From positions 1-23,819 of the IMG/VR virus record IMGVR_UViG_3300020347_000035: a stretch of DNA of 23,819 nt; one strand, given 5' to 3'. This DNA is from a virus. The notes beneath the pieces are model-generated. The model ran no database searches. It was given only the letters and a program-made list of their open reading frames with translations, and had not been told where the DNA came from. The position numbers and the translations under genes were made by a program. Of the stretch, positions 946 through 15,202 are shown piece by piece (the stretch's first letter is position 1; every line of letters begins with the position of its first letter).

Positions 946-953
946 TATATTTG
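946..953 (+). promoter_or_regulatory. -7 promoter element for groEL-groES (TATATTTG)
   Basis: TATATTTG fits the Bacteroidota -7 consensus and lies 23 bases before the groEL ATG, giving a predicted leader of about 18 nt. The expected -33 position is occupied by the inverted CGACAT repeats rather than TTTG, which suggests control by a protein bound there. Confidence 0.65.
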
Positions 954-976: not shown

Positions 977-2548
977 ATGAATCCAAAAGAGTTGTCTTTC
1001 GACCAGGAAGGAAGAGATAAGTTATTAAGCGGTATAACTAAAATATCCAAAGCAGTTAAAAGTACATTAGGGCCACTCGGTAAAACAGTACTTATTGAAT
1101 CACAAAACCATACATCAGGAATTACAGTAACGAAAGACGGAGTTACAGTTGCAAAATCTATTGACCTTGAGGACTCAGTAGAGAACCTAGCTATTCGTAT
1201 GATGAAAGAAGCTGCTGATAGGACAGCAACTTCAGCAGGTGACGGAACAACTACAGCTATTGTACTTACCGAAGCTATTGTTAAGGAGGGTATGCGATTG
1301 ATTCAAAGAAATCCTGAGGTTAATACCACACAATTAGTTCGTGACATTAATAGTCTAGCTAATGATGTAATTAAAAGTTTAAGCAAGTCTTCTAAAAAGG
1401 TTACAGGTAAAACATTGCGTGATGTAGCGACTATATCTGCCAACAACGATCCTGTGTTAGGTAGAATGATTGCCAATGCTTACAAAGAGCTTGGTAATGA
1501 TGGAATACTCACAGTAGAGAATAGTAAAACAGAAAAGACATACTACGAGGTAACTAAAGGAATTAAGATTGATAGAGGGTACAGTTCTAAGTTGTTTATT
1601 AATAACCATAGAAATGACGAATGTATTTTAGATGACGTGTATGTTTTGATGACAGACATGGAGATTACAAATATTCTGCAGATTGAAAATATTTTAAAAC
1701 CAATTATTAATCAAAACAAAAAACTTTTGATTATTGGTAACTGCTCTAACAATGTAACAAATACTTTGGCAGCAAATGTTGTGCAGAATAATTTAAAGCT
1801 TTGTAATATTATACCACCATCTTTTGGATATAAGACTAACGAGCTAATGTCTGATATAGCATTAGCTATAGGTGCTAAATATTTCAGCGAGTCGCAAGGC
1901 GACAACATAGGGATATTGAAAATGGAAGATTTAGGGCATGCTGAAAAAATTATAGTAGGAAGAGATACTACTGTAATTATGAATAATGAGCAAAGCAGTA
2001 AGGACGCTAAAGCTAGAATAGAAGAACTTAAAGTTCAGAAGGAAAACAATAAAGATAAAAAGGATAGAGATTTTATTTCAGAAAGAATTGCCTTGCTATC
2101 TGGAGCTGTAGGTGTAATTTATGTTGGGGCTAACTCAGATATTGAGCAGAAAGAAAAGTATGACCGTGTAGAAGATGCGGTGTGTGCAGTAAAGTCAGCA
2201 ATTGAAGAAGGCATACTTCCAGGCGGAGGTGTAGCGCTACTTAGATGCGGTGAGCAACTTGACGATGGAGATGCAGCCGATATATTGTATGGAGCTTTAT
2301 GTGCGCCACTAGAACAAATACTAACCAACGCAGGCGATAACATAAAAGAGATCAGAGATAAAATATGTCAATGTGCAAATGTTCCTTACACAGAAGGATA
2401 TGATGTTAAGAACAAAAAATTTGGCAATATGTATAAAATGGGTGTAATTGACCCTGCGAAGGTTACGAAAAATGCATTAAAGAATGCAGTAAGTGTAGCA
2501 ACAACAATCTTAAGTACCAATGCAATCGTAACAATGAAAAGAAAATGA
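977..2548 (+). CDS. groEL: Phage-encoded chaperonin GroEL (Hsp60), 523 aa
   Basis: Type I chaperonin: a double-ring ATPase that encloses unfolded proteins in the cytoplasm with a GroES lid. The N-terminal equatorial part shows TLGP (30-33), TKDGVTVAK (52-60) and GDGTTT (88-93, Asp89 matching the ATP-site Asp87 of E. coli). The C-terminal equatorial part shows Asp400 in VEDAVCAVKSAIEEG (catalytic Asp398 of E. coli), LPGGG (414-418) and VIDPAKVTKNAL (Asp492 at the nucleotide pocket). All key ATPase residues are present, so it is probably active. The apical domain diverges most. The protein is slightly shorter than the usual ~545 aa and ends in KRK without a Gly-Met tail. It overlaps groES by four bases. 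It is likely used for folding capsid or fibre proteins (inference). Confidence 0.96.
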   Translation: MNPKELSFDQEGRDKLLSGITKISKAVKSTLGPLGKTVLIESQNHTSGITVTKDGVTVAKSIDLEDSVENLAIRMMKEAADRTATSAGDGTTTAIVLTEAIVKEGMRLIQRNPEVNTTQLVRDINSLANDVIKSLSKSSKKVTGKTLRDVATISANNDPVLGRMIANAYKELGNDGILTVENSKTEKTYYEVTKGIKIDRGYSSKLFINNHRNDECILDDVYVLMTDMEITNILQIENILKPIINQNKKLLIIGNCSNNVTNTLAANVVQNNLKLCNIIPPSFGYKTNELMSDIALAIGAKYFSESQGDNIGILKMEDLGHAEKIIVGRDTTVIMNNEQSSKDAKARIEELKVQKENNKDKKDRDFISERIALLSGAVGVIYVGANSDIEQKEKYDRVEDAVCAVKSAIEEGILPGGGVALLRCGEQLDDGDAADILYGALCAPLEQILTNAGDNIKEIRDKICQCANVPYTEGYDVKNKKFGNMYKMGVIDPAKVTKNALKNAVSVATTILSTNAIVTMKRK

Positions 2549-2850
2549 ATCATTGGTTAGCAGAAGGTCTAGAAATTTTAAAAAAAAGAAGAATGAAAGC
2601 AGTAGGTAAGTACATTGTAATTACAGAAATTAAAGAACAGCAGAAAACTGAGTCAGGTATTTTACTAACGTCAGACGATAGCAATCTACTAAGATACAAA
2701 AAAGGTTTGATAAAAATTCCAGGGACTGAAGTTAGCGTTGTGAAAGAAGGAGATATAATTTATTACGATAAAAATTCAGGACATAGAATGATGCTAGAAG
2801 AAGATGTAGTTACAATTATTTCAGAAAGAGATATTGTAGTAGTTCTTTAA
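2545..2850 (+). CDS. groES: Co-chaperonin GroES (Cpn10), 101 aa
   Basis: Lid of the GroEL chamber. The core matches Cpn10: a first strand (GKYIVITEIK, 21-30), the mobile loop (QKTESGILLT, 33-42, with the hydrophobic ILL at 39-41 that docks onto GroEL), the turn KEGD (67-70) leading to IIYY, and the closing strand VVTIISERDIVVVL. The start chosen overlaps the groEL stop in an ATGA, which would couple translation. It adds 16 residues (MNHWLAEGLEILKKRR) before Met17, where a normal-length Cpn10 would begin at 2593; either start is possible. In bacteria groES normally precedes groEL; here the order is reversed. A terminator follows 21 bases after the stop. Confidence 0.9.
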   Translation: MNHWLAEGLEILKKRRMKAVGKYIVITEIKEQQKTESGILLTSDDSNLLRYKKGLIKIPGTEVSVVKEGDIIYYDKNSGHRMMLEEDVVTIISERDIVVVL

Positions 2851-2871: not shown

Positions 2872-2913
2872 AATGTGTAAAGAAAATTAAAAAATCTTTA
2901 CATATTTTTTTTT
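2872..2913 (+). terminator. Terminator of the groEL-groES unit
   Basis: TGTAAAGA (2876-2883) pairs with TCTTTACA (2895-2902). The stem extends outward through a G-T wobble and further A-T pairs, and runs into nine T (2905-2913). The right arm overlaps the last codons of the convergent minus-strand gene, so this hairpin separates two converging units. Confidence 0.75.
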
Positions 2914-3365
2914 ATCTCTTGATTCATTTTCTTAATTATCTTACGATATACTTTGTGAGAGTAAGTTGCGTTTGGATCGAATATGGGATTTCGTCTTCTA
3001 TCTTCTGAGACAGTTTCCTCCATGTTTAATTTTTTATAAATCGAAGCGCATAAGCGCTTACCTCTAAAGCCTAGTTCGTACAACGTACCCTCACGGCCTT
3101 TTCTTTTACGCCATACTATAATCCATTTATCTTTTAATAAATTATGAAATCGGTTTTTATCCCAAGACATTATTTCATTATATTCTTCAAATTGTTTTTG
3201 AGTAAACAATCCTTCGCTATATAGGAACAACATCATTTCAATATCAGCCGTGCCTACATCGTACTTAATTTTAGCCCATTGCTTAACGACTTTCCAATAT
3301 TTTAAATAATCATTTTTTGGTTGGTATCGTTCGTATACTCTGCGAATCTTTCTTCGAATTTTCAT
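2898..3365 (-). CDS. Probable winged-helix DNA-binding regulator (155 aa)
   Basis: The only minus-strand gene in the window. Residues 40-80 look like the helix core of a MarR-type winged helix (TADIEMMLFLYSEG, then FTQKQFEEYNEI, then WDKNRFHNLLKDKW), followed by a beta-hairpin wing at 81-97 (WIIVWRKRKGREGTLYEL). N- and C-terminal ends are strongly basic. The call rests on pattern, not on a family match. It is transcribed from the palindrome at 3379-3394, whose other half drives the rightward late genes, so it may repress or switch that promoter and itself. Its ATG lies 21 bases from its -7 element. The function as regulator of the late genes is inference. Confidence 0.6.
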   Translation of the reverse strand: MKIRRKIRRVYERYQPKNDYLKYWKVVKQWAKIKYDVGTADIEMMLFLYSEGLFTQKQFEEYNEIMSWDKNRFHNLLKDKWIIVWRKRKGREGTLYELGFRGKRLCASIYKKLNMEETVSEDRRRNPIFDPNATYSHKVYRKIIKKMNQEIKKNM

Positions 3366-3378
3366 TTAATTAAATTTG

Positions 3379-3394
3379 TATCTTTGCAAAGATA
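3379..3394. promoter_or_regulatory. Palindromic bidirectional promoter (TATCTTTGCAAAGATA)
   Basis: This 16-bp sequence is a perfect palindrome made of two back-to-back Bacteroidota -7 elements: TATCTTTG on the + strand (3379-3386) and TATCTTTG on the - strand (3394-3387). The + copy is 19 bases from the ATG at 3406, and the - copy 21 bases from the ATG at 3365. Both spacings give leaders of about 14-16 nt. No strong -33 TTTG is visible on either side. Polymerase could occupy only one orientation at a time, and the same symmetry could serve a dimeric repressor. Confidence 0.7.
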
Positions 3395-3405
3395 ACTTTT
3401 TTATT

Positions 3406-3717
3406 ATGGCCCTCGGAAGAACAGCAAAATATTATAGAGATAACCCTGAAGCTAGGAAAAAGCACAGAGATTATCAAAAAAAGTATAATAAAAAGAAGTC
3501 ATCGATTCGACAAAGGGTAGCAGATAATCGTGAAAATAGAAGATTTGGTACATATGGTAATTATGATGGCCTTGATGTTTCTCGTAGAAAAGGTGGAAAA
3601 TACGTCTTGGAGTCTGCAAAAAAGAACAGAGGTAGTAAAACTAATACACCTGGAGACAAAAGAGCTAGAGGCAAAAAAGGAAAAGGTAGAAAAAATAAAG
3701 GTAACACTAAAAAATAA
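3406..3717 (+). CDS. Very basic small protein, MALGRTAKYYRDNPEARKK family (103 aa)
   Basis: A Lys/Arg-rich protein with almost no hydrophobic core. The opening (TAKYYRDNPEARKKHRDYQKKYN), the central NRRFGTYGNYDGLDVSRRKGGKYV and the tail NRGSKTNTPGDKRARG resemble a family of small basic proteins I recall from many aquatic viruses; its function is not known to me. An in-frame TTG at 3376 would extend it, but that lies inside the -7 promoter element, so the ATG at 3406 is the right start. It is the first gene of the rightward late unit. A DNA- or RNA-binding, possibly virion-packaged, role would fit the charge but is speculative. Confidence 0.75.
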   Translation: MALGRTAKYYRDNPEARKKHRDYQKKYNKKKSSIRQRVADNRENRRFGTYGNYDGLDVSRRKGGKYVLESAKKNRGSKTNTPGDKRARGKKGKGRKNKGNTKK

Positions 3718-7660: not shown

Positions 7661-10600
7661 ATGGCAAAAATTAGCAATACTACATCGTATCCAAATCAAT
7701 CACCGATTGAAGGTGCGGATTATTTAATTGGAACAGCAGCAAACTCAAATCCAATTAATAAACAAACCAAAACATTTACAATACAAGGTATTGCTGATTT
7801 CGTTATTGATGCGGCATTTAGTGGAGTATCATACAGACTACCTGTCTTTACAGCTGCAACGGCAGGACAAGAATCATTTTTATTAGTTGATTCATTATTA
7901 TATCAAGATACAGCTTCTCTAGGTGGTAAACCTGGAGAAGTTCTTGGTTCAACCGTATATATTAATAATGGCTCAGGCGTTGGGTCATTAGAGGTTGCTC
8001 AAAATGTTTTAGTTGGAGCTAATCTTACAGTAAACAATAACGCAAACATATTAAATGATTTTTATGTAGCAGGAGATTCAGTATTTGATGATTCAGTTAC
8101 AATGAATCAAGAAATAAGATTAATTGGAGATGTTTACGATTCTACAAACACTCAAGGTAATCAAGAACAAGTTTTAGTTTCAGATGGAAGCGGAAAAGTA
8201 ACTTGGCAAAACTTCCAAGGTTCAGGATTGGAATATCAATCAGCTTGGGATGCTTCAACAAATGTACCTGATTTACAGGCTTATCCATTAACTGCTGATA
8301 ATACAGGTAAGTATTGGGTAGTGTCAGTTGCAGGAACAACTCCTTTAACAGATGCAGCAGGTGGAACAATTACAGATTGGGAGCCAGGTGATTGGGCAAT
8401 TATCTCTGAAGATATTGCAGGAAATGTGTTTTGGGATAAAATTGATAACTCTTCTGTATTAACAGGACAAGGTACAACAGGAAATATAGCAATATGGACA
8501 GCGCCAAGAGAGCTTGGTGATGCGCCAATAAAACTTGGAGCAGGAAATTCATCTCTAATCTTTAATAAAGCATTTTCTTCAGATGGAGATAGTGCTAATT
8601 CTTTTGGAGATGGTTCGGACGCAACAGGCCCACAATCTTTTAGTGCAGGTTATGCAACATCAGCTCAAGGAGGAGCTTCACAAGCTTTTGGAAAAGAAAG
8701 TACAGCAAGTAATGATTTTGCATTAGCTGCAGGTTTTGAAACACAAGCAAAAGGAAAAGCTTCTTTTTCAATGGGAGATAGTTCTATTGCAGACGGAGAT
8801 TACTCTGTTGCATTTGGGGAACAAAGTAATTCAATAGGTACTACGTCATTTGCATTTGGTAAAACAACAAGAGCAGACGGAGATTACTCTATTGCTTTAG
8901 GTGATTCATCTGAATCATTAGGACAACATTCTTTTGCAGCAGGTAAAGATTCTATAGCTTCAGGTATAGCTTCTTTAGCATTTGGAGAAAATGCACTTGC
9001 TGATGCACAATCTTCAACAGCTATAGGTACAGATGTTAGAGCAAAAGGTAATGGTTCTATAGCTCTAGGTAAAGACAGTGATGCAGCATCAGATTTCTCT
9101 ATAGTAATAGGTGCAACTAATGTTGCAGGTTCAGTAGGTAATGGAGGAGGAGTTGCAATAGGTGAAAATAATAATGCATTAGGAGCTAAATCAGTAGCTA
9201 TAGGTGAATCAAATTCTATAGCTGTAACTGCAAATAACTCAGTTACATTAGGTGGTGGAAATACTGCAATTGGAGAATTTTCTTTTTCTGCAGGTAAAGG
9301 TAATAACAATGATGGTAATAGCGGTACAGCAATAGGTCGTGATAATGTAGTGAAACAAACTGCAACAAATGGAGTTGCTTTAGGATATGATAATAATGTT
9401 GAAGCACAAAGTGCAGCTGCAATAGGTGAAGATAATGATGCTGTAGGAGCTTTTTCAATGGCATTAGGTTATAATAATATTATTACAGCCAATTACGGTG
9501 TTGGATTAGGACAAGAAAATGTAGTATCAGGATTAAATGGTACTGCAATTGGTAAATCAAACACAGCATCTTCAGGAGCTGCTGTAGCTTTAGGTTTAGA
9601 AACTACAGCTTCAGGTAGTGCTTCGGTAGCATTAAACAATTCGACAGTTGCTTCAGGAGGTGATTCATTTGCTTCAGGATTTGAATCAACTGCAACAGGA
9701 TCTGCAGGAACAGCAATGGGATATAGAACTTCTGCATTAGGAAATTATGCTTTTGCATCAGGTTATTTATCTAATACAAATGGAGATTCAGCTATTGCAA
9801 TGGGTGACAACGCAAAAGCAGATAATAATAATACTGTAGCAATTGGTTCTGATATAGTAGTTGATTTAAAAAGAACTGTTGCTATAGGAAACAACTTATT
9901 AGCTAAGGGAGATTCTCAAATAGTAATTGGAAATGGATTAGAGGGAGGTTCTTATAGAGAAACAATATTAGGTTCATACAATAATCCACCAAATAGTCCA
10001 AGTGTAGATACTTGGGTTGCTACTGACGCTATACTTACTGTTGGTAACGGACAAGACATTAATAATAGAAGTAATGCTTTTATTATATATAAAAATGGTG
10101 AATTACAATTAGAACAATATGGAACAGGAACAATAACAGGAACTGCCACATATAACTTAGGTGTTGATGCAAACGGTAATGTAATTGAAGTAGCCACAGG
10201 AGGTGGAGGTGGAGGAACAGTCACAGGTACTGGAACTCAAGATTACATAACAAAATGGAATAGTAATACGGCTGTTGGAGATAGCATAATGTTTGAAGGA
10301 GGTCAAGGAATTGGTCTTGGAACAGTTACTCCATCATACTCTTTTGATACTTTCTATGGTTCAGGAAGGTATGCTTCATTTGGTGTTGCATTTGCTGAAG
10401 CAGTACCAGCTAACGGTATAATCAATATTGGAGATGTAGATGGTAATGGAGCGGCACTAGGTCTTTATGACGATACTTCTTCTCGAACAGTTATTGTAAA
10501 AGGCGGAGCAGTAAGAATAGGTTCAGGTGGAGCAGCAGTTGAAAAACTACAAGTAGAAGGAAATATAGTATTAAGTGGAAGTGGTAATCAAGACGATGTT

Positions 10601-10915
10601 TATACTACTAATGATGCATTGTTTTTATCGGCAGGAGGTAATACTGTAAGTGCCACTCATATTTTAATTCAAGATGCTAATTCAGTTATTTCGACAGATT
10701 CAAATTCAGTTATGGGTGTGGGGGTTGCAAATCCTCAAGCTAAACTAGATGTAGATGGCGGTATTAAAATGGGAGACACTAGTGTAGTCCCAAGCGCTTC
10801 GAATGTCGGTACAATGAGATATAGAGTAAGTGGTAATAATAGTTATGTAGATATGGTTATGCAAGATGGCCCTACTTCATATACATGGGTAAATATAGTA
10901 CAAAAGAACTGGTAA
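7661..10915 (+). CDS. Giant tail fibre with YadA-like head repeats (1084 aa)
   Basis: Residues 1-55 form an attachment-like module (DYLIG at 20-24, then FTIQGIADFVID) shared in outline with the protein at 4101. About 193-270 is a module beginning YQSAWDASTNVPDLQAYPLT that recurs in the fibre at 11560. Residues ~304-757 are tandem ~14-residue repeats of the type AIG-x-S/A-x-A-G-S-SFAFG, the left-handed beta-roll of YadA/Hep_Hag adhesin heads. A Gly-rich hinge (TGGGGGGTVTGTGTQDYITK) follows, then a stalk and a tip ending WVNIVQKNW. Such proteins trimerise and bind host surface receptors. No Peptidase_S74 chaperone is seen at its C-terminus, although a smaller YadA-type fibre downstream has one. 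Largest gene in the window. Confidence 0.88.
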   Translation: MAKISNTTSYPNQSPIEGADYLIGTAANSNPINKQTKTFTIQGIADFVIDAAFSGVSYRLPVFTAATAGQESFLLVDSLLYQDTASLGGKPGEVLGSTVYINNGSGVGSLEVAQNVLVGANLTVNNNANILNDFYVAGDSVFDDSVTMNQEIRLIGDVYDSTNTQGNQEQVLVSDGSGKVTWQNFQGSGLEYQSAWDASTNVPDLQAYPLTADNTGKYWVVSVAGTTPLTDAAGGTITDWEPGDWAIISEDIAGNVFWDKIDNSSVLTGQGTTGNIAIWTAPRELGDAPIKLGAGNSSLIFNKAFSSDGDSANSFGDGSDATGPQSFSAGYATSAQGGASQAFGKESTASNDFALAAGFETQAKGKASFSMGDSSIADGDYSVAFGEQSNSIGTTSFAFGKTTRADGDYSIALGDSSESLGQHSFAAGKDSIASGIASLAFGENALADAQSSTAIGTDVRAKGNGSIALGKDSDAASDFSIVIGATNVAGSVGNGGGVAIGENNNALGAKSVAIGESNSIAVTANNSVTLGGGNTAIGEFSFSAGKGNNNDGNSGTAIGRDNVVKQTATNGVALGYDNNVEAQSAAAIGEDNDAVGAFSMALGYNNIITANYGVGLGQENVVSGLNGTAIGKSNTASSGAAVALGLETTASGSASVALNNSTVASGGDSFASGFESTATGSAGTAMGYRTSALGNYAFASGYLSNTNGDSAIAMGDNAKADNNNTVAIGSDIVVDLKRTVAIGNNLLAKGDSQIVIGNGLEGGSYRETILGSYNNPPNSPSVDTWVATDAILTVGNGQDINNRSNAFIIYKNGELQLEQYGTGTITGTATYNLGVDANGNVIEVATGGGGGGTVTGTGTQDYITKWNSNTAVGDSIMFEGGQGIGLGTVTPSYSFDTFYGSGRYASFGVAFAEAVPANGIINIGDVDGNGAALGLYDDTSSRTVIVKGGAVRIGSGGAAVEKLQVEGNIVLSGSGNQDDVYTTNDALFLSAGGNTVSATHILIQDANSVISTDSNSVMGVGVANPQAKLDVDGGIKMGDTSVVPSASNVGTMRYRVSGNNSYVDMVMQDGPTSYTWVNIVQKNW
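8570..9935 (+). repeat. Tandem YadA-type head repeats (about 42-nt unit)
   Basis: Within the giant fibre, codons for S-A-x-G and A-I-G recur about every 14 residues (for example GCAATAGGT, TTTGCATTTGG and TCAGCAGG variants) over roughly 450 residues. The repeats are diverged rather than identical, so recent slippage is not evident, but the array could change length by recombination. Confidence 0.75.
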
Positions 10916-14753: not shown

Positions 14754-15202
14754 TGCCAAGTGTACCTGATACAACTACATTTAATATGGATGATGTAAAG
14801 ACTGCTGTAGGCAACTACAACAATCTATACGATCTTTTTAAATTTGCGGACTCAGCTCAGTTTGATCCTGCATATGCAGGAAATAAAGATAATTTATTAA
14901 ATTTTAGAAATTATGGAAATCAACGAGTGTGGAGGCTAGCTAATGCTTATGGAGTTGTAAGCACCCCAAGCTTCAAGTTTTGTAATCAAACACCTAATAC
15001 AACGATATATTGGTTTGGGGTAAATAGTACTTGTATTAATATTGGTGATTTAATTTGCAGCAACAACACAGGGACTCGTTGTAGAATAGGAAAAGGGTAT
15101 TATTATACTCCTATTTGTTATGGAGAGTGGATTCTAGTAGATTATGATAGTTCAATATCTAGTTTTTTTGTAAAAGATAGAGGATTTTGTACACCACCTT
15201 AA
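14753..15202 (+). CDS. Fibre-associated protein with FRNYG motif (149 aa)
   Basis: The N-terminal part (TTTFNMDDVKTAVGNYNNLY, DLFKFADSAQFDPAYAGNKD, NLLNFRNYG) resembles a module I have seen in tail-fibre regions of flavobacterial phages. The C-terminal part is Cys-rich (Cys at 77, 94, 102, 109, 121 and 146) with short beta strands (TTIYWFGVNSTCINIGDLIC). The cysteines suggest disulfides or metal binding in a small receptor-binding tip. It is coupled to the S74 fibre by TAATG. Family and function are not established. Confidence 0.65.
   Translation: MPSVPDTTTFNMDDVKTAVGNYNNLYDLFKFADSAQFDPAYAGNKDNLLNFRNYGNQRVWRLANAYGVVSTPSFKFCNQTPNTTIYWFGVNSTCINIGDLICSNNTGTRCRIGKGYYYTPICYGEWILVDYDSSISSFFVKDRGFCTPP

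Follow-up and report, generated by a model that had tools for sequence, protein, structure and literature searches.

What does a perfect 16-bp palindrome do in the only gap between divergent genes of a phage genome fragment: does it serve as a promoter in both directions, as the operator of the neighbouring regulator, or is it a chance product of base composition? The window that we analysed, 23.8 kb in length, is a fragment of a virus record, and its nearest named relatives are the metagenomic podovirus MW202828 and several Flavobacterium, Cellulophaga, Tenacibaculum and Maribacter phages. We consider it quite probable that the gap at positions 3366-3405 acts as a bidirectional promoter for the housekeeping RNA polymerase of the host, with two abutting boxes that would serve the regulator gene on one side and the virion block on the other.

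The divergent gap and its palindrome

The window contains a single plausible leftward gene, a 155-aa open reading frame (2898..3365, minus strand; ATG at 3365-3363) assigned to phrog_17028, which encodes a predicted MarR-like winged-helix protein and putative DNA-binding regulator. The 40 bp at 3366-3405, the sole divergent gap in the window, separate it from the rightward virion block, whose first gene encodes a 103-aa basic protein (phrog_6437; 3406..3717, plus strand). This protein family is listed without a function, and in relatives unrelated genes take its place. The rightward block encodes an amidase, a terminase large subunit, a portal protein and a capsid-like protein, and the label "late" for this block would follow from the function of those genes. 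The window also encodes a 1084-aa protein (7661-10915) with many short repeats of the AxAxGxxSxAxGxxSxAxG type, similar to YadA-like adhesin heads; judging from these repeats, the protein is likely a tail fibre. On the other side of the regulator gene we found the genes of GroEL (977-2548, plus strand) and GroES (2545-2850, plus strand), followed by a hairpin and a run of nine T (2872..2914, plus strand; z -2.7), which is likely the terminator of the GroEL-GroES unit. We rejected this terminator as a family-wide feature, since its stem was kept in the window and in some close relatives only. Near the start of the fragment, positions 61-220 are G+T-rich and of low complexity, carry a short tandem repeat and differ from the remainder of the window; this could be either a genuine non-coding region or an assembly problem.

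The perfect palindrome TATCTTTGCAAAGATA occupies positions 3379..3394 and is the only match to this sequence in the window, even when up to three mismatches are allowed. It is made of two facing, abutting Bacteroidota sigma-A -7 boxes, so that a single short sequence carries elements of the -10 type on both strands. The rightward box, TATCTTTG (3379..3386, plus strand), lies on the virion-gene side, 19 nt from the ATG at 3406, while the leftward box, again TATCTTTG (3387..3394, minus strand), lies on the regulator side, 21 nt from the regulator ATG. Both halves match the TAnnTTTG consensus at all six fixed bases (6/6). A sequence-only reading of this stretch had reported the palindrome with these distances to the two start codons, and our coordinates and distances agree with it. 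It had also described two -7 elements fused back to back, one facing the winged-helix gene and the other the virion genes, an arrangement that proved to be shared by most relatives. An additional TAnnTTTG, TAAATTTG (3371..3378, plus strand), is located immediately upstream of the rightward box and occurs in close relatives only; it is possibly a second -7 box. On neither side of 3379-3394 did we recognise a -33 TTTG element at the proper distance, and on the leftward side there is a G+C-rich region near -28. The missing -33 element is no bar to a sigma-A promoter, since it is hardly visible in F. johnsoniae promoters (PMC6847099).

The palindrome alone means little, because 0.6 perfect 16-bp palindromes are expected by chance per window (shuffled windows) and a second one, TCCTGCATATGCAGGA, is found at 14866-14881 inside a rightward gene, as chance would predict. 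The idea that the palindrome is in itself rarer than chance was thus discarded. An abutting, facing pair of TAnnTTTG boxes was expected 0.02 times per window, and single boxes showed no excess (28 in the window versus 36 by chance).

Conservation in related phages and in Bacteroidota

We recovered exact matches to the 16-mer in 114 stretches among 2.9 million viral contigs (IMG/VR). Most of them (80 out of 114) sit 20-23 nt upstream of a homologue of the 155-aa gene, and 22 of the remaining 34 are located inside long open frames. The gene on the other side varied in length and identity within this set. Since the 114 stretches had been selected by the palindrome, we built an unbiased set from protein searches alone, which comprised 76 clusters under 90% identity. 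A divergent open reading frame was present in 71 of the 76 clusters, and 64 showed facing boxes at a spacing of 0-12 nt (spacing 0 in 32 clusters and 1-12 in 32, including 11 with spacing 6). Spacing 6 was the second commonest after 0, and spacings above 0 are exemplified by L101, L281 and L345. The virion-side box was a perfect TAnnTTTG in 73/76 clusters and the regulator-side box in 46/76, being weaker in the rest; in 27 clusters only the virion-side box was perfect, and in none was the regulator-side box the only perfect one. The perfect palindrome was found in 17 of the 76 clusters.

The protein tree requires a minimum of 26 changes in spacing class and a minimum of 6 in palindrome state. 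Between lineages, the bases and the spacing that the promoter does not fix were variable, and the six consensus bases were constant. The head-to-head arrangement of boxes is shared by related phages from many environments. In several family members the two promoters are separate and do not overlap, and phages with the regulator gene in tandem (the Elemovirus L037, and L034) lack the arrangement. From these comparisons, the feature conserved across the family is the pair of putative colliding sigma-A promoters and not the symmetry itself. Conservation of the full palindrome in relatives, which the sequence-only reading had put forward for checking, was therefore found in part: the facing boxes are widespread, the palindrome is limited to a minority of clusters and its spacing has often changed. 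Loss of symmetry with one -7 half retained, which that reading had set against its own proposal, describes the 27 clusters with a perfect virion-side box only; on the other side, exact symmetry is kept in several deep lineages, with that of the window among them.

Some lineages showed particular variants on the regulator side. In L014-L016, the leftward box, which lies about 30 nt upstream of the regulator ATG, lacks one T (TATATTGC) and matches the F. psychrophilum SM5 box TAnnTTGY; this possibly reflects either another sigma class or plain decay. In L023 and L029 a stretch of 5-7 nt separates the boxes from the regulator ATG, a position that suggests leaderless or nearly leaderless regulator mRNAs.

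Most of the listed matches to the exact palindrome in bacterial genomes came from Bacteroidota. Among these same listed matches, 37 of the 50 intergenic palindromes of Bacteroidota lie between divergent genes, compared to 59 of 199 random intergenic positions, and this was the case for 1 of 13 palindromes outside Bacteroidota. The general form TAnnTTTGCAAAnnTA favours divergent gaps as well (14 of 25 intergenic occurrences), with nn bases that are mostly asymmetric. A reversed-pattern control in 198 Bacteroidia genomes was biased by its central CpG, and we relied on gene context instead. Facing -7 pairs are probably a device common to Bacteroidota in general, which these phages employ at a single fixed position.

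Predicted promoter geometry and proposed transcription

In Flavobacterium and Bacteroides, the -7 box of sigma-A (ABfr) promoters, TAnnTTTG, is located at -12 to -5 (PMC9723704, PMC6847099, PMC7366714), and in F. psychrophilum and F. johnsoniae its six fixed bases scarcely vary and a -33 element is barely visible (PMC9723704, PMC6847099). Each half of the palindrome resembles such a promoter, with a full -7 box and a short leader to the ATG, and the phage site differs from them in having two facing copies. In the window and six relatives, the density of TAnnTTTG was about five times higher 5-40 nt before gene starts (3.3/kb) than inside genes (0.68/kb), and the gaps from the promoter-like boxes to the gene start were mostly 16-29 nt, a range into which the 19 and 21 nt of the two halves fall. 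Based on the position of the box in F. psychrophilum (-12 to -5; PMC9723704), we infer start sites at about 3391 (rightward) and about 3382 (leftward). The predicted distance between them is about 9 bp at spacing 0, and it would be 3 bp at spacing 6.

We propose that a host polymerase of the sigma-A/ABfr type would read the gap in both directions, with each abutting -7 box covering the start site of the opposite promoter. Since the boxes abut, the two orientations would be mutually exclusive: polymerase would open the same few base pairs either way, and never both at once. The leftward start would yield the mRNA of the predicted winged-helix protein and the rightward start that of the virion/lysis block, with a virion-side promoter that is the better conserved one and a regulator-side promoter usually equal or weaker. 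The perfect palindrome would arise when both boxes take the form of the common octamer TATCTTTG at zero spacing. With regard to the polymerase, no Sigma70_r2 domain was found in 11 near-complete relatives by a search that detected its positive control, and a phage-encoded sigma factor was thus rejected for these relatives. A phage polymerase may still take part, since the search for T7-type polymerases ran without a working positive control.

Two other explanations would do without a promoter pair. A chance palindrome in A+T-rich DNA agrees with the number expected in this window, but the vast majority of relatives have facing boxes at this position, and the palindrome is retained exactly between proteins that are less than half identical; this conservation refutes chance, to which we give practically no weight. 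It is also possible to suppose that only the rightward promoter matters, and that the leftward box arises as a side effect of near-symmetry, with the regulator gene transcribed weakly or from elsewhere. The 27 clusters in which the virion-side box alone is perfect, with no case of the reverse, point in that direction, as does the observation that many bidirectional promoters yield non-coding RNA in one direction (PMC10268837). We nevertheless regard this explanation as improbable, considering that the regulator-side box stays mostly 21-28 nt from the ATG even as it shifts relative to the other box, that it is perfect in 46 clusters and that no other promoter box was consistently found before the regulator gene.

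The preferred reading, a promoter pair used in both directions, places the site among the known bidirectional promoters, as their Bacteroidota version. In E. coli, bidirectional promoters have by definition start sites 7-25 bp apart, with distances of 18, 10 and 23 bp being common, and polymerase takes up either orientation but never both simultaneously (PMC10268837, PMC12825309). The phage site shares with the bacterial examples (Warman, Grainger et al.; PMC12825309, PMC10268837) the elements of the -10 type on both strands. Its predicted start-site distance at zero spacing is shorter than the usual 18 bp, but lies within the 7-25 bp range (PMC10268837) and close to the 10-bp class of E. coli (PMC12825309). 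In contrast to the bacterial examples, the phage site uses the Bacteroidota sigma-A box TAnnTTTG, which is not self-symmetric, so that the two boxes must abut head to head; moreover, a phage family retains the pair at a single site, beside a regulator gene. Among the papers that our literature search covered, none was found to describe a facing TAnnTTTG pair.

The putative regulator, the operator question and their meaning

The AlphaFold2 model of the 155-aa protein, built with 23 relatives, had a pLDDT of 87, and all its top Foldseek matches were MarR-type proteins (E 5e-3, prob 1.0). VIA-align gave Z scores of 9.6 to the Thermotoga MarR-like regulator (2a61) and 9.4 to MepR. The protein of the window had no match in Pfam, none of 23 members had a MarR match, and a search of solved structures by sequence returned no significant relative. 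In PHROGs, phrog_17028 is listed as of unknown function, and a GenBank record labels one homologue "repressor protein", which is an annotation only. According to the structural models, the protein belongs to a genuine MarR-like winged-helix family and is a good candidate for controlling the shared promoter; the winged-helix character that the sequence-only reading had seen in the leftward protein is thus borne out by the predicted fold (AlphaFold2, Foldseek, VIA).

Many MarR-type proteins repress their own gene and divergent targets by binding between them. The phage locus resembles divergently encoded MarR-type regulators in the predicted winged-helix fold, the divergent gene order and the presence of a palindrome over the promoters, whereas it differs from them in that the 155-aa protein is without a Pfam match, the palindrome is explained by promoter boxes and the spacing varies in relatives. 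That the palindrome is the operator of the 155-aa protein, where a bound dimer would block both promoters and, until relieved, keep the regulator gene and the virion genes repressed, is a possibility that we take seriously while leaning against it. Along with fold and gene order, it is favoured by the 80 of 114 exact viral palindromes that precede this gene family, by the occurrence of the exact palindrome once per near-complete phage genome and by the absence of TATC on both sides in host sites (0/30 among the matches listed). A dimer operator needs a fixed spacing, and here the halves are 0 to 12 nt apart, with the changes counted on the protein tree; moreover, no second copy of the site was found in the genomes checked.

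The nn bases of the boxes bear on the same question. Among the unique zero-spacing sequences with a TTTGCAAA core, 51 out of 55 were exact palindromes, and the pairwise difference of their nn bases was 0.05 on the regulator side and 0.00 on the virion side, compared to 0.37-0.39 in the flanks. In the set with a TTTACAAA core the corresponding values were 0.41 and 0.44. Such near invariance at zero spacing in the TTTGCAAA set, unlike the TTTACAAA set, would be expected of an operator, but the ordinary one-way promoter of GroEL, which we used as a control, was nearly as conserved. Its -7 box TATATTTG (946..953, plus strand) lies 23 nt upstream of GroEL and is conserved in many relatives; in the palindrome-bearing phages the GroEL promoter reads TATATTTG in 36 of the 41 that have a box there, with an nn difference of 0.14. 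Conserved nn bases hence need no symmetric binder, since a one-way promoter keeps them too, and the case for an operator from invariant nn bases is weakened. The leader of the regulator gene, with its conserved AAATTTAATnnAATG, was another operator candidate; we rejected it, as the same A/T-rich leader stands before many other genes in these phages and is more likely a translation signal.

For the lineages with a perfect palindrome, we suggest only tentatively that one 16-bp sequence combines two sigma-A -7 boxes with a MarR-like operator, through which a single dimer could shut both sides. The "toggle" of the sequence-only reading is not supported, given that only one regulator-like gene flanks the site and that a shared palindrome does not amount to two mutually repressing regulators.

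With this promoter pair, the known bidirectional promoters come to include those of the divergent sigma factor of Bacteroidota, in a geometry set by a non-symmetric box; evolution has retained the pair at a single control point across a large group of aquatic phages. The analysis distinguishes the conserved promoter pair from the palindrome that is formed when both boxes are the same octamer. It also names a likely regulator for the virion genes of these phages, and its sites are testable in Flavobacterium johnsoniae. If the operator reading were true, one bound dimer would silence both the regulator and the virion genes in a widespread group of Bacteroidota phages.
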